Source: a virus
Strand: one strand, 5' to 3'
IMG/VR virus record: IMGVR_UViG_3300025137_000047
Span: 1 to 55,268 of that record
Length of the DNA stretch: 55,268 nt
In this document: in pieces, positions 3,354 to 7,199 of the stretch
Layout of the letters: each line of letters starts with the position of its first letter
How positions within the stretch are numbered: the stretch's first letter is position 1
Translations under genes and position numbers: made by a program
The notes under the pieces: generated by a model
What the model was told of the DNA's origin: nothing
Seen by the model: only the letters and a program-made list of their open reading frames with translations
Databases searched by the model: none

Positions 3354-3532
3354 ATGACAAGAGTCTAAATGTCGATATCAATTTTGATGGTATCGAACAA
3401 GTCAAAAAGAAGTACAAGAAAATTAAAAAGTACATGAAGTCTAACCTATATCAGATTAAGGTTATAGACGGTACGGAGAAAGTAGTCTCCAACCTGATAA
3501 AGGAAAACGATAATGCAGAACTACTTGACTAA
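3350..3532 (+). CDS. Small basic protein, function unknown
   Basis: This 60-aa protein is translationally coupled to the previous gene (ATGA). A central run of lysines (VKKKYKKIKKYMK, residues 18-30) looks like an amphipathic basic helix. It ends in the acidic DNAELLD. It is the last gene of the purM-talC block. The sigma70 -35 box of the next transcription unit (TTGACT, 3525-3530) overlaps its final codons. No family is recognised. Confidence 0.6.
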   Translation: MNDKSLNVDINFDGIEQVKKKYKKIKKYMKSNLYQIKVIDGTEKVVSNLIKENDNAELLD

Positions 3533-3553
3533 ATAATGTATGAGGTCTATAAT
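3525..3553 (+). promoter_or_regulatory. Sigma70-type promoter of the riboswitch mini-operon
   Basis: TTGACT (3525-3530) and TATAAT (3548-3553) are separated by exactly 17 bases, a near-perfect bacterial housekeeping promoter. Transcription would begin near 3560, just before the aptamer core that starts at 3562. A T4-late-like CTAAATAA (3529-3536) overlaps the -35 region, so a second, late start near 3542 is possible. Confidence 0.85.
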
Positions 3554-3561
3554 AGACCTGT

Positions 3562-3634
3562 CGTTCATCTCCTAATTTGGACTAAATTAGGACTCAATTA
3601 GGAGACGCAAGTAAGTCGCGGAACGGAGCCGTTC
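3562..3634 (+). ncRNA. Glutamine-II (downstream-peptide) riboswitch candidate
   Basis: The leader has the landmarks I know for the glnA/downstream-peptide aptamer class, which binds glutamine. They are CGTTCAT at 3562-3568, a 10-bp stem (3568-3577 with 3596-3605), the core ACGCAAGTAAG at 3605-3615, and GGAACGG at 3620-3626. GAACG (3621-3625) can pair with the 5' CGTTC (3562-3566) to form the pseudoknot. It can also pair with a second CGTTC at 3630-3634. The Shine-Dalgarno GGAG (3625-3628) of the 54-aa ORF touches this helix, which suggests ligand-dependent blocking of translation. The class is known from marine picocyanobacteria and cyanophage; the ligand here is inferred from the motif only. 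Confidence 0.8.
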
Positions 3635-3639
3635 ATCCT

Positions 3640-3804
3640 ATGCTAGAAATACTATTCTATTCATCACTCACCTGTCAACAAGCTGATACAATCATGCTTA
3701 AGATGAAAGCAAATGAGAATATCTCAAATGCTTTTAAGGTAGAGTTGATTGAGGTCATGAAGGAATCAACACCTGAATGCTATCCATGGGACGCAAACGA
3801 CTAA
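3640..3804 (+). CDS. 54-aa peptide controlled by the riboswitch leader
   Basis: This small ORF (MLEILFYSSLTCQQADTIML at the start, ECYPWDAND at the end) begins 11 bases after GGAG at 3625-3628, inside the predicted riboswitch expression platform. Short ORFs of this size are exactly what the downstream-peptide RNA class precedes. The N-terminal 20 residues are hydrophobic with one Cys; a helical KVELIEVMKE segment follows and a second Cys lies near the end. In cyanobacteria a related glutamine riboswitch controls a small inhibitor of glutamine synthetase. A similar role here is a hypothesis only, because I see no clear similarity to the basic GS-inactivating factors. Confidence 0.75.
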   Translation: MLEILFYSSLTCQQADTIMLKMKANENISNAFKVELIEVMKESTPECYPWDAND

Positions 3805-3845
3805 AGGAACGGACCTAAAAATCCAACTACTTTAGGAGTAACAAC

Positions 3846-4013
3846 ATGAACACCCTTCAAATGGTAAAGCAGCAGATCAACAAAGTATCTGCACTTCACA
3901 ACGCACAAATTCTTCACACCTCATATCGTGGTGTTGAGTATAATACACGTTGTGTAGAAAACAAAGAGTCGCACGGTACATTCTGCTATCGTGGTCGTAC
4001 TTATACTAAGTGA
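3846..4013 (+). CDS. Small protein with two YRG motifs (DUF4278-like)
   Basis: This 55-aa ORF has AGGAG (3834-3838) seven bases before its ATG. The C-terminal half contains SYRGVEYNT (about residues 27-35) and CYRGRTYTK (48-55), the paired Y-R-G motifs that resemble the cyanobacterial DUF4278 family. Two Cys (36 and 48) lie near them. It is the second gene of the riboswitch transcript and is followed by a strong terminator. A CTAAAG/CTTTAG stem (3801-3806 with 3830-3835) could partly cover its ribosome binding site. The function is unknown; host-like origin is plausible. Confidence 0.75.
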   Translation: MNTLQMVKQQINKVSALHNAQILHTSYRGVEYNTRCVENKESHGTFCYRGRTYTK

Positions 4014-4031
4014 TTCATTAACTTACATTGC

Positions 4032-4061
4032 AGAGAGGATTAACTATCCTCTCTTTTTTTG
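4032..4061 (+). terminator. Rho-independent terminator of the riboswitch mini-operon
   Basis: A perfect 9-bp stem (AGAGAGGAT 4032-4040, ATCCTCTCT 4046-4054) with a 5-base loop is followed by a T tract to 4060. Confidence 0.9.
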
Positions 4062-4191: not shown

Positions 4192-4362
4192 ATGCATAAT
4201 GTTATGTCTAGTAACCAATTAGCTGAGTGGAGGAATATTGGCCACAATTTAAATCTATACAATGACGAAATAGATTTAACAAACGACTACTTTGATTGTT
4301 TAATAGAGTGCGATGATTCTCAGTCAATATGTAAACGAATATGTAGGAGACTATTAAGTTAA
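4192..4362 (+). CDS. Small Cys-containing acidic protein, function unknown
   Basis: This 56-aa ORF is preceded by AAGGA eight bases before the ATG and followed by its own terminator. The sequence contains EWRNIGHNLNLYNDEIDL, then NDYFDCLIECDD and SICKRICRRLLS. The four Cys (36, 40, 47 and 51) form two CxxxC pairs, which could bind a metal or form disulfides. I recall short proteins with the NDYF.C...C....C..IC pattern in marine cyanobacteria and their phages but cannot name a family. It forms a single-gene unit between two terminators. Confidence 0.65.
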   Translation: MHNVMSSNQLAEWRNIGHNLNLYNDEIDLTNDYFDCLIECDDSQSICKRICRRLLS

Positions 4363-4370
4363 TATGAGAA

Positions 4371-4397
4371 GCGTGTCTTGACAGACACGCTTTTTTT
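4371..4397 (+). terminator. Rho-independent terminator
   Basis: A GCGTGTCT/AGACACGC 8-bp stem (4371-4378 with 4383-4390) with loop TGAC is followed by seven T. It closes the 56-aa gene unit. Confidence 0.9.
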
Positions 4398-4408
4398 GTG
4401 TAGAATGT

Positions 4409-6275: not shown

Positions 6276-6961
6276 TGTTTGTCCATTTAGATAATTTGAA
6301 AGGTGAGACTGATTTAACAGCAACCATGATTGATGGGACTCGTTTTTACGAAGTTCCATCAGGAAAGATGTATCCATCCATCACCTCAGTCACGAGTTTC
6401 TATAACCGTGAAGTCTTTGTTAAATGGCGAAAGCGAGTCGGTAACGACGAAGCAAATAAAATTCTTAGAGAGTCTACATTTCGTGGGACTAAGTTCCATG
6501 ATGCAGTGGAACAATATATTAAAAATGTTCCTATCAAGGACATTGATATGCTTCCCTCTACAAAGTTCCTTCTACTCTCAGCGAAGGAGAATTTGGACCG
6601 TATAAATAACATACATGTTATAGAACAGTCACTGTATAGTGACTATCTTGGTCTTGCGGGGAGAGTAGACTGCATAGCAGAGTACGACGGAGAACTAGCA
6701 GTCATCGACTTTAAGACCTCAGCCAAGATTAAACCCGAGAAATGGATTGAAAATTATTTCGTGCAAGAGACTGCCTATGCTTGCATGTATTTTGAAATGA
6801 CTGGTATCCCAGTCAAAAAACTTATTACTATTATGGTTGCAGAAAATGGAGAAAGCTTTGTCTACGAAAAAACAAACAAGGGTCACTATATTAAACTTCT
6901 CACAGAGTACATCAAAAAGTTCGTCGAATTCAAAACAGGAGAATATGGAGAATCAAGTTGA
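6275..6961 (+). CDS. PD-(D/E)XK exonuclease (genome maintenance exonuclease 1-like)
   Basis: This 228-aa protein has the RecB/MGME1-type nuclease motifs in order: GTKFH at 71-75, a VD pair at 131-132, VIDFKTS at 143-149 with D145 and K147 as the metal and catalytic residues, and QETAY at 164-168. The spacing between GRVD and DFKTS is typical of the PD-(D/E)XK fold, so nuclease activity is likely. Homologues sit beside gp33/gp59/gp32 in marine T4-like phages and may trim single-stranded DNA ends during replication or recombination. It overlaps phoH by one base, and the gp33 gene starts inside its 3' end. Confidence 0.88.
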   Translation: MFVHLDNLKGETDLTATMIDGTRFYEVPSGKMYPSITSVTSFYNREVFVKWRKRVGNDEANKILRESTFRGTKFHDAVEQYIKNVPIKDIDMLPSTKFLLLSAKENLDRINNIHVIEQSLYSDYLGLAGRVDCIAEYDGELAVIDFKTSAKIKPEKWIENYFVQETAYACMYFEMTGIPVKKLITIMVAENGESFVYEKTNKGHYIKLLTEYIKKFVEFKTGEYGESS

Positions 6962-7199
6962 TGATCTGATCAAAGAGAAGTTTATATGTCCAGCAAAATT
7001 TGCACAAGAAGTCGAGAATCTAGTCAAAACTTACAAGTTTAATTACATTGATGCTATTATTACTTTCTGTGAAGAGAACAAGATCGAGATGGAATCTGTC
7101 GGTAAACTGATTTCAAAACCACTGAAGGAAAAACTTAAGTATGACGCTACTCAACTTAACTTCCTGAAAAAGACTACGAGAGCAAAACTTCCATTATGA
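6945..7199 (+). CDS. 33: gp33-like late-transcription co-activator
   Basis: In T4, gp33 bridges RNA polymerase and the sliding clamp and works with the sigma-like gp55 to start late transcription. This 84-aa protein fits the short cyanophage form: a central NYIDAIITFCEENKIEMESVGKLI split by short loops, then PLKEKLKYDATQLNFLKKTTRAKLPL. The assignment rests on recall of cyanophage gp33 proteins and on position just before gp59 and gp32. The ATG at 6945 has AGGAG closely upstream and overlaps the exonuclease gene by 17 bases. The many TAAATA boxes in the window fit its role. Confidence 0.75.
   Translation: MENQVDDLIKEKFICPAKFAQEVENLVKTYKFNYIDAIITFCEENKIEMESVGKLISKPLKEKLKYDATQLNFLKKTTRAKLPL

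Follow-up and report, generated by a model that had tools for sequence, protein, structure and literature searches.

A putative doubled, interlocked glutamine-I-type riboswitch enclosing a small gene in a T4-like cyanophage

Glutamine riboswitches have already been described in cyanophages (PMC9964418, PMC9602691), and examples from other marine phages have been published. In the cyanobacterial hosts these RNAs mainly precede genes for DUF4278 proteins and activate on glutamine (PMC6316151). DUF4278 is an IF17-type domain whose cyanobacterial genes carry glutamine riboswitches, and IF17 does not need its DUF4278 part in order to inhibit (PMC6316151). In the literature compared, which did not extend to the primary papers of Ames and Breaker (2011) and Klahn (2018), neither cores that interlock nor aptamer loops that hold ORFs were found to be described.

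The window analysed here is the whole of a 55,268 nt stretch of viral DNA (IMGVR_UViG_3300025137_000047) from a T4-like cyanophage, the relatives of which are Kyanoviridae. The locus of interest, an RNA element with two ORFs, lies at 3525-4061 on the + strand, as do all of its parts described below. An initial annotation of this region had listed a promoter, core motifs, a 54-residue ORF, a 55-residue ORF with a YRG motif and a terminator. Every one of these was found where it had been placed, including all three core motifs, CGTTCAT at 3562, ACGCAAGTAAG at 3605 and GGAACGG at 3620. What that reading had missed is a second core, made up of 3630-3642 together with 3785-3811. A motif scan of viral contigs showed that most cores are followed by a second copy of CGUUCAUCC directly after GGAACG; in the window this copy occupies 3630-3638, immediately 5' of the start codon of the 54-residue ORF, and the other half of the second core, GGGACGCAAACGACUAAAGGAACG, falls at the 3' end of that ORF (3788-3811). 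The second glutamine-type core, CGUUCAUCC...GGGACGCAAACGACU-AAAGGAACG, therefore surrounds the 54-residue ORF, which had been placed downstream of the riboswitch and in fact sits inside the second core, filling its P2b loop.

The complete double element spans 3562-3811. In the proposed structure an outer, canonical aptamer is built from P1 (CGUUC/GAACG), P2a, ACGCAAGUA, P3 and AAAGGAACG, and its P3 loop houses a second, permuted core composed of GGAACG-loop-CGUUC, P2b and ACGCAAA. The outer P1 5' strand, CGUUC (3562-3566), would pair with 3807-3811, as it does in RF01739 alignments of relatives. It is followed by the P2a hairpin (3568-3605), which has a 10 bp stem in the predicted fold, and by ACGCAAGUA (3605-3613), the conserved glutamine-I core and 5' strand of loop E. 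The P3 5' strand AGUCG (3614-3618) is matched by covariation to its 3' strand CGACU (3798-3802). Between them lie the inner P1' hairpin GGAACG-GAGC-CGUUC (3620-3634), identified in the minimum-energy fold, and P2b, whose 5' arm UCCUAUG (3636-3642) includes the ORF start codon and pairs with the 3' arm CAUGGGA (3785-3791), as judged from covariation and folding. The 3' half of the second core, ACGCAAA-CGACU-AAAGGAACG (3791-3811), also codes for the WDAND end of the ORF and its stop codon.

The RNA had initially been assigned to the glutamine-II class. Covariance-model searches with both families gave marginal results for the window alone, with both scores under the curated cut-offs: RF01739 (glutamine-I, the glnA motif) matched 3560-3629 at 21.9 bits against a cut-off of 35, and RF01704 (glutamine-II, Downstream-peptide) reached 16.4 bits against a cut-off of 33. 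The RF01739 match has an E-value of 6.9e-4 for the 55-kb record alone and ranked second among the 4227 families scanned locally against the window, which together indicate that the core is more than a chance resemblance. Glutamine-II was rejected as the main class because it scores below glutamine-I in the window and, moreover, because relatives that have no ORF pass RF01739 across the whole element. Eight such relatives exceed the RF01739 cut-off (35.1-43.6 bits) and are aligned as a single whole-element aptamer that opens at the first CGUUC and closes at the last GGAACG, the P3 insert being 38-52 nt in the alignments shown. As the model spans the entire ORF-less element, P3 must be formed by one strand from each core. 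Since the ORF-less relatives exceed the cut-off, the low score of the window is likely due to the ORF splitting the aptamer; a covariance model of the whole element built here (R1) likewise matched only the first half in the window, the intervening 155 nt not being bridged. Matches of the window to SIB, L20-leader, RAGATH-7 and snoZ39 were far under their cut-offs and were discarded.

The outer aptamer has the glutamine-I consensus of P1, P2, ACGNAAGUA, P3 and [G/A]AAGGAACG, and the P1/P2/P3 three-way junction with ACGNAAGUA and GAAGGAACG is complete at 3562-3811, with covariation in P2 and P3. Two departures are seen, in that the loop-E GAA reads AAA in the window and the inner core is without the GUA of the loop-E motif. 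The latter, together with scores under both Rfam cut-offs, would fit a host riboswitch that has degenerated into a relic, or an element that binds another ligand. Either is improbable, as the core is conserved with compensatory changes in hundreds of phages (a match to the element region is present in no fewer than 441 deposited phage records), and the element shares the DUF4278 context of host glutamine riboswitches (PMC6316151). Glutamine is likely to be the ligand, judged on motif and genomic context. Canonical single glutamine-I aptamers were also present in related viral contigs, where they scored 39-52 bits. Single canonical aptamers in L014, L015, L031, L038, L063 and L076 precede YRG-type genes, and several of them are positioned directly 3' of TATAAATA; the four of these that were scanned (L014, L015, L063 and L076) scored 39-49 bits.

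The wider analysis drew on a census of 209 distinct complete viral elements, in which ORFs were called by loop length with the P2a and P2b frames checked; the sample is partly biased toward ORF-containing elements, some loci having been fetched via the nested protein. In all 209 elements two cores stand before one gene. The P3 strands that join these cores are paired at a frequency of 0.862 in 131 elements, compared with 0.754 (s.d. 0.017) after shuffling, and at 0.801 compared with 0.715 in the 209 elements, where slid registers gave 0.09-0.36; these and the other shuffle tests ignore the relatedness of the elements. The P3 variants comprise AGUCG/CGACU, AGUCA/UGACU, AAUCG/CGAUU, GGACGG/CCGCCC (with one mismatch) and longer forms. 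For the 23 ORF-less elements, 95.6% of cells in the whole structure are paired, and the covariation score of 0.283 compares with 0.101 for shuffled controls (0 of 500 shuffles reaching it) and with 0.07 or less for slid controls. The two P2b arms covary even when an ORF holds them ∼ 150 nt apart (0.896 versus 0.759, s.d. 0.0135), and in 79 of 91 distinct cases one or more bases of the start codon fall within P2b. The window itself folds with a z-score of -4.2, and P2a, the inner hairpin, P2b and the anti-Shine-Dalgarno (anti-SD) helix described below are all formed in its minimum-energy structure. Together, these sequence comparisons argue with high confidence for an architecture in which two glutamine cores are interlocked through a covarying P3 helix.

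How the P1 strands are partnered within this architecture is a separate matter. GGAACG and CGUUC of 3620-3634 could alternatively be the P1 strands of two tandem aptamers, in which CGUUC-A would pair with GGAACG-A and CGUUC-B with GGAACG-B, each aptamer having its own P1, with P3 acting as a kissing helix in a cooperative rather than a nested arrangement. The P1 strands are identical and so allow both pairings. Moreover, P1 and the inner hairpin show no variation in the 23 ORF-less elements (the inner GGAACG/CGUUC being invariant in 23 of 23), which means that covariation gives no means of separating the nested pairing from the tandem one. Tandem glutamine riboswitches are documented, with 157 doublets published (PMC9481103), and in two ORF-less elements, L045 and L098, RF01704 was passed over one half of each (35.7 and 33.2 bits). 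The nested pairing, however, requires no pseudoknot, places the loop-E AAGUA and GAA beside the P1 that RF01739 expects, is the one in which RF01739 itself aligns eight relatives, and includes an inner hairpin found in the minimum-energy fold. On this balance the tandem arrangement is considered unlikely, and the nested arrangement is used in what follows.

Two side observations concern the hairpins and core number. In many phages the P2 hairpin of one or other core is a palindrome around TTCGCTATTCGCAAATAGCGAA that is closely similar from phage to phage (P2b in L009, L013, L034, L099 and others; P2a in L005 and L082), and this palindrome may be a mobile repeat. In L068, around 6500-7000, an extra complete first core precedes the double element to give a triple arrangement.

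The 54-residue ORF (3640-3804) belongs to phrog_504. Its start codon pairs within the P2b stem, and its last codons and stop (WDAND-stop) are the 3' half of the core, so that the C-terminal residues W-D-A-N-D and the stop evidently do no more than translate the RNA core. Of 106 such ORFs, 103 have their stop at the same point of the core. Synonymous diversity (pS) falls to ∼ 0.1 in the last five codons from 0.5-0.6 in the interior, which points to RNA constraint at that end. On a rival reading, the ORF would be a frame that arose by chance over a structured RNA and yields no functional protein, its last five codons being dictated by the RNA. The interior of the ORF, by contrast, bears the mark of in-frame purifying selection, with pN/pS of 0.44-0.49 in frame compared with 0.94-1.75 in the other frames. 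Two cysteines are invariant in the nested-ORF proteins. A ribosome-binding site is tied to the presence of the ORF: GGAG (3625-3628), the candidate Shine-Dalgarno sequence in the loop of the inner hairpin, has its counterpart (GGAG or GAG) in the linker of 88 of 89 short-P3 elements with an ORF and in 0 of 15 without one. Most long-P3 elements with an ORF are without GGAG. Alternative ORFs also occur in the same slot. A chance frame is thus very improbable, and these sequence signatures identify the nested ORF as a real gene. An AlphaFold model of its product is a two-helix hairpin of moderate confidence (pLDDT 77.7).

Within the census, an ORF is found in P2b only in 146 of the 209 elements, in P2a only in 10, in both loops in 21 (including phage Syn19) and in neither in 32; the P2a loop thus holds a further ORF in 31 elements. 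In the ORF-less versions, for example those of L008, L039 and Bellamy, the second core is a plain hairpin. The P2a ORFs (carried by L202, L216, L231, L288, L294, Syn19 (L297) and others) are ∼ 60-75 residues long with a signal-peptide-like start, and often end in IIGRK-stop, the GRK-stop of which is the core GGACGCAAGUAA. Cultured phages that carry the element include S-ShM2, Syn19, Syn33, S-RIM2, S-SSM4 and Bellamy. In the ten matching phage records that were opened, the annotation of both ORFs reads hypothetical protein, and the annotated start of Syn33_196 lies 5' of the second core. When 84,980 bacterial and archaeal species genomes were searched for the element signature, seven matches were returned; six hold the phage element, mostly on MAG or single-cell contigs, and the seventh (L290) is a chance match. 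The architecture therefore looks phage-specific within the strict signature searched. PhotoRC-II RNAs (RF01717) were seen in several of the same viral contigs (L013, L055, L072 and L008).

The gene that follows the element encodes the 55-residue YRG protein (3846-4013; phrog_545). This protein does have relatives, and it matches DUF4278 (PF14105), the family associated with IF17 and with the glutamine riboswitches of hosts, at 22.9 against a Pfam cut-off of 25.3 (E 1.2e-4), which is just below the cut-off. DUF4278 was matched by 12 of 13 related YRG proteins, with E-values of up to 0.01 and a best value of 1.8e-13, and a YRG gene follows every one of the 196 elements that have sufficient 3' flank. 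DUF4278 was the sole match within the 55-residue protein, in which the IF7-like C-terminal inhibitory region was not found, and to call it a glutamine synthetase inhibitor would therefore exceed the evidence. A PDB sequence search with the YRG protein gave no match.

A further helix could connect the element to expression of this gene. The anti-SD strand CUAAAG (3801-3806), which overlaps the nested stop codon, pairs with 3830-3835 in CUUUAGGAG (3830-3838), a segment that combines the anti-SD partner with the Shine-Dalgarno sequence of the YRG gene and is supported by covariation and folding. An A at the variable position of the stop codon is never opposite C (covariation P = 1.4e-6), and all six CURAAG/CUUYAG pairs are kept in 90 of 110 elements. 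CURAAG also holds the loop-E GAA and the greater part of the nested stop codon. At minimum energy the window folds with the CURAAG/CUUYAG helix formed, and forcing the aptamer state costs only 2.3 kcal/mol more, an amount that a ligand could repay on this calculation. At low glutamine, the CURAAG at the 3' end of that core would pair with CUUYAGGAG and hide the YRG ribosome site (OFF); with glutamine present, the same bases would join P3 and the loop-E motif, freeing the site (ON), such that the YRG/DUF4278 gene would be expressed with glutamine, as reported for the host riboswitches. The covariation, the fold and the small energy gap together support this scheme, and glutamine-dependent activation of the YRG gene is considered fairly likely. 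It is a weakness of the scheme that, when the window is forced into the aptamer state, its YRG ribosome site stays masked by a local hairpin, CCUAAA/UUUAGG (3814-3819/3831-3836).

The position of the nested stop, overlapping the anti-SD strand 41 nt 5' of the YRG start, would also suit a translation-driven leader, in which ribosomes on the nested ORF open the anti-SD helix by coupling or attenuation and ligand binding has been lost or is minor. The protein-level selection on the nested ORF fits such a scheme. Against this, the core residues are invariant in both halves, and elements with no ORF retain every one of them although they would be needless for translation, making a purely translational leader rather improbable.

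Control of the nested gene itself is less clearly indicated. Closure of P2b and the inner hairpin would hide its start codon and ribosome site. The 3' arm of P2b is made ∼ 150 nt later, so ribosomes could load on the nested gene first, and those crossing the ORF would break the sensor; the nested protein would then probably be made before the RNA closes, or at low glutamine. P2b is closed in both computed states of the window, however, so thermodynamics alone gives no reciprocal control, and whether the nested gene is reciprocally OFF with glutamine is somewhat doubtful. Rather more tentative is the suggestion that the P2 loops are exchangeable gene slots in which sensing and translation are mutually exclusive, with low glutamine giving the small two-cysteine nested proteins and high glutamine DUF4278. 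The initial proposal that a glutamine-type element controls small phage proteins is well supported by these comparisons, but the joint setting of both ORFs is not, since the 54-residue ORF is inside the second core and the two ORFs need not go up or down together.

At the 5' end, the sigma70-type promoter TTGACT-17-TATAAT (3525-3553) matches the consensus hexamers at 11 of 12 bases; it is a consensus match only, and promoter-like matches in that stretch number 6 where 6.6 are expected by chance. A start from this promoter, as initially proposed, may be only part of the story, as a T4-late-like -10 motif, TAAATA (3530-3535), overlaps the sigma70 spacer and is followed by a covarying hairpin. 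This motif is assigned from its sequence and from its position before the inverted repeat AGGTCTATAATAGACCT (3543-3559), which lies over the -10 box and adjoins the 5' side of the aptamer. Across related loci, TA[ATC]ATA occurs 2-9 nt 5' of the repeat in 79% of 154 compared with 3.6% in shuffles. The repeat has a stem of typically 6-7 in about 150 related loci, among which there are 53 distinct sequences, whereas promoter-like sites elsewhere in the same contigs are without the repeat and have a typical stem of 2. A DNA operator over the -10 box was considered for this repeat and set aside, as the arms vary yet stay complementary; moreover, in isolates including S-ShM2, Syn33 and Syn30 the repeat comes after TATAAATA and contains no TATAAT. 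Both features make an RNA hairpin likelier than an operator, and the repeat is probably the 5' RNA hairpin of a late-promoter transcript. In the window, where the late-like TAAATA and the sigma70-type hexamers overlap, both starts are possible.

At the 3' end, the sequence at 4032-4054 has the stem and following U run (a T run in the DNA) of an intrinsic terminator. Beyond it the window holds a 56-residue ORF of phrog_665 (4192-4362) and, at 4372-4406, a T-run hairpin overlapping a promoter-like TTGACA-17-TAGAAT, which precedes the next small ORF and thyX.

Overall, the locus is best explained, on sequence evidence, as a doubled, interlocked glutamine-I-type riboswitch in a T4-like cyanophage, and this is probably correct as a whole. 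Such an element would tie the phage directly to the host glutamine signal and to the DUF4278 genes under host glutamine riboswitches, the function of which in marine picocyanobacteria is described as unclear, and one RNA could switch production between two phage proteins in line with the nitrogen state of the cell. The WDAND residues, which exist because the RNA needs them, are an unusually clear case of dual coding. If the loops are gene slots, the one RNA would be a two-output nitrogen toggle during infection, with a nested gene that has its start in a helix and its stop in the ligand-binding core, and the translation of which destroys the sensor. The presence of the element in many cultured phages makes these proposals testable at once.

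Group I introns (PMC3984707) carry ORFs in their peripheral loops, usually for a homing endonuclease, the intron RNA itself being a ribozyme. The phage element resembles them in having a protein gene in the hairpin loop of a structured RNA, and differs in that its RNA is a putative metabolite sensor rather than a ribozyme. With glutamine-I riboswitches it shares P1, P2, ACG[GC]AAGUA, P3 and [G/A]AAGGAACG, as well as a downstream DUF4278 gene and a probable ON-type anti-SD logic. It departs from them in that the P3 loop holds a second, permuted core, the P2 loops hold protein genes, and the core includes a stop codon. Like the pseudoknotted glutamine-II class, it places the first-half GGAACG within the P3 loop and is associated with short ORFs. 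The class II ORF, however, comes after the aptamer, the motif lying in the 5' UTR (PMC2864571), whereas the phage ORF is enclosed and the phage element has the loop-E AAGUA. Tandem glutamine riboswitches (PMC9481103; PMC2864571) also place two close cores before one gene, but those of the phage are joined by a covarying P3 helix and have ORFs inside them. Finally, the gifB/IF17 riboswitch of Synechocystis and those of picocyanobacterial DUF4278 genes (PMC6316151) likewise precede a DUF4278 protein; in contrast, the arrangement described here is phage-borne, has nested ORFs, and precedes the gene of a protein of only ∼ 35-62 residues that is without the IF7-like inhibitory part.
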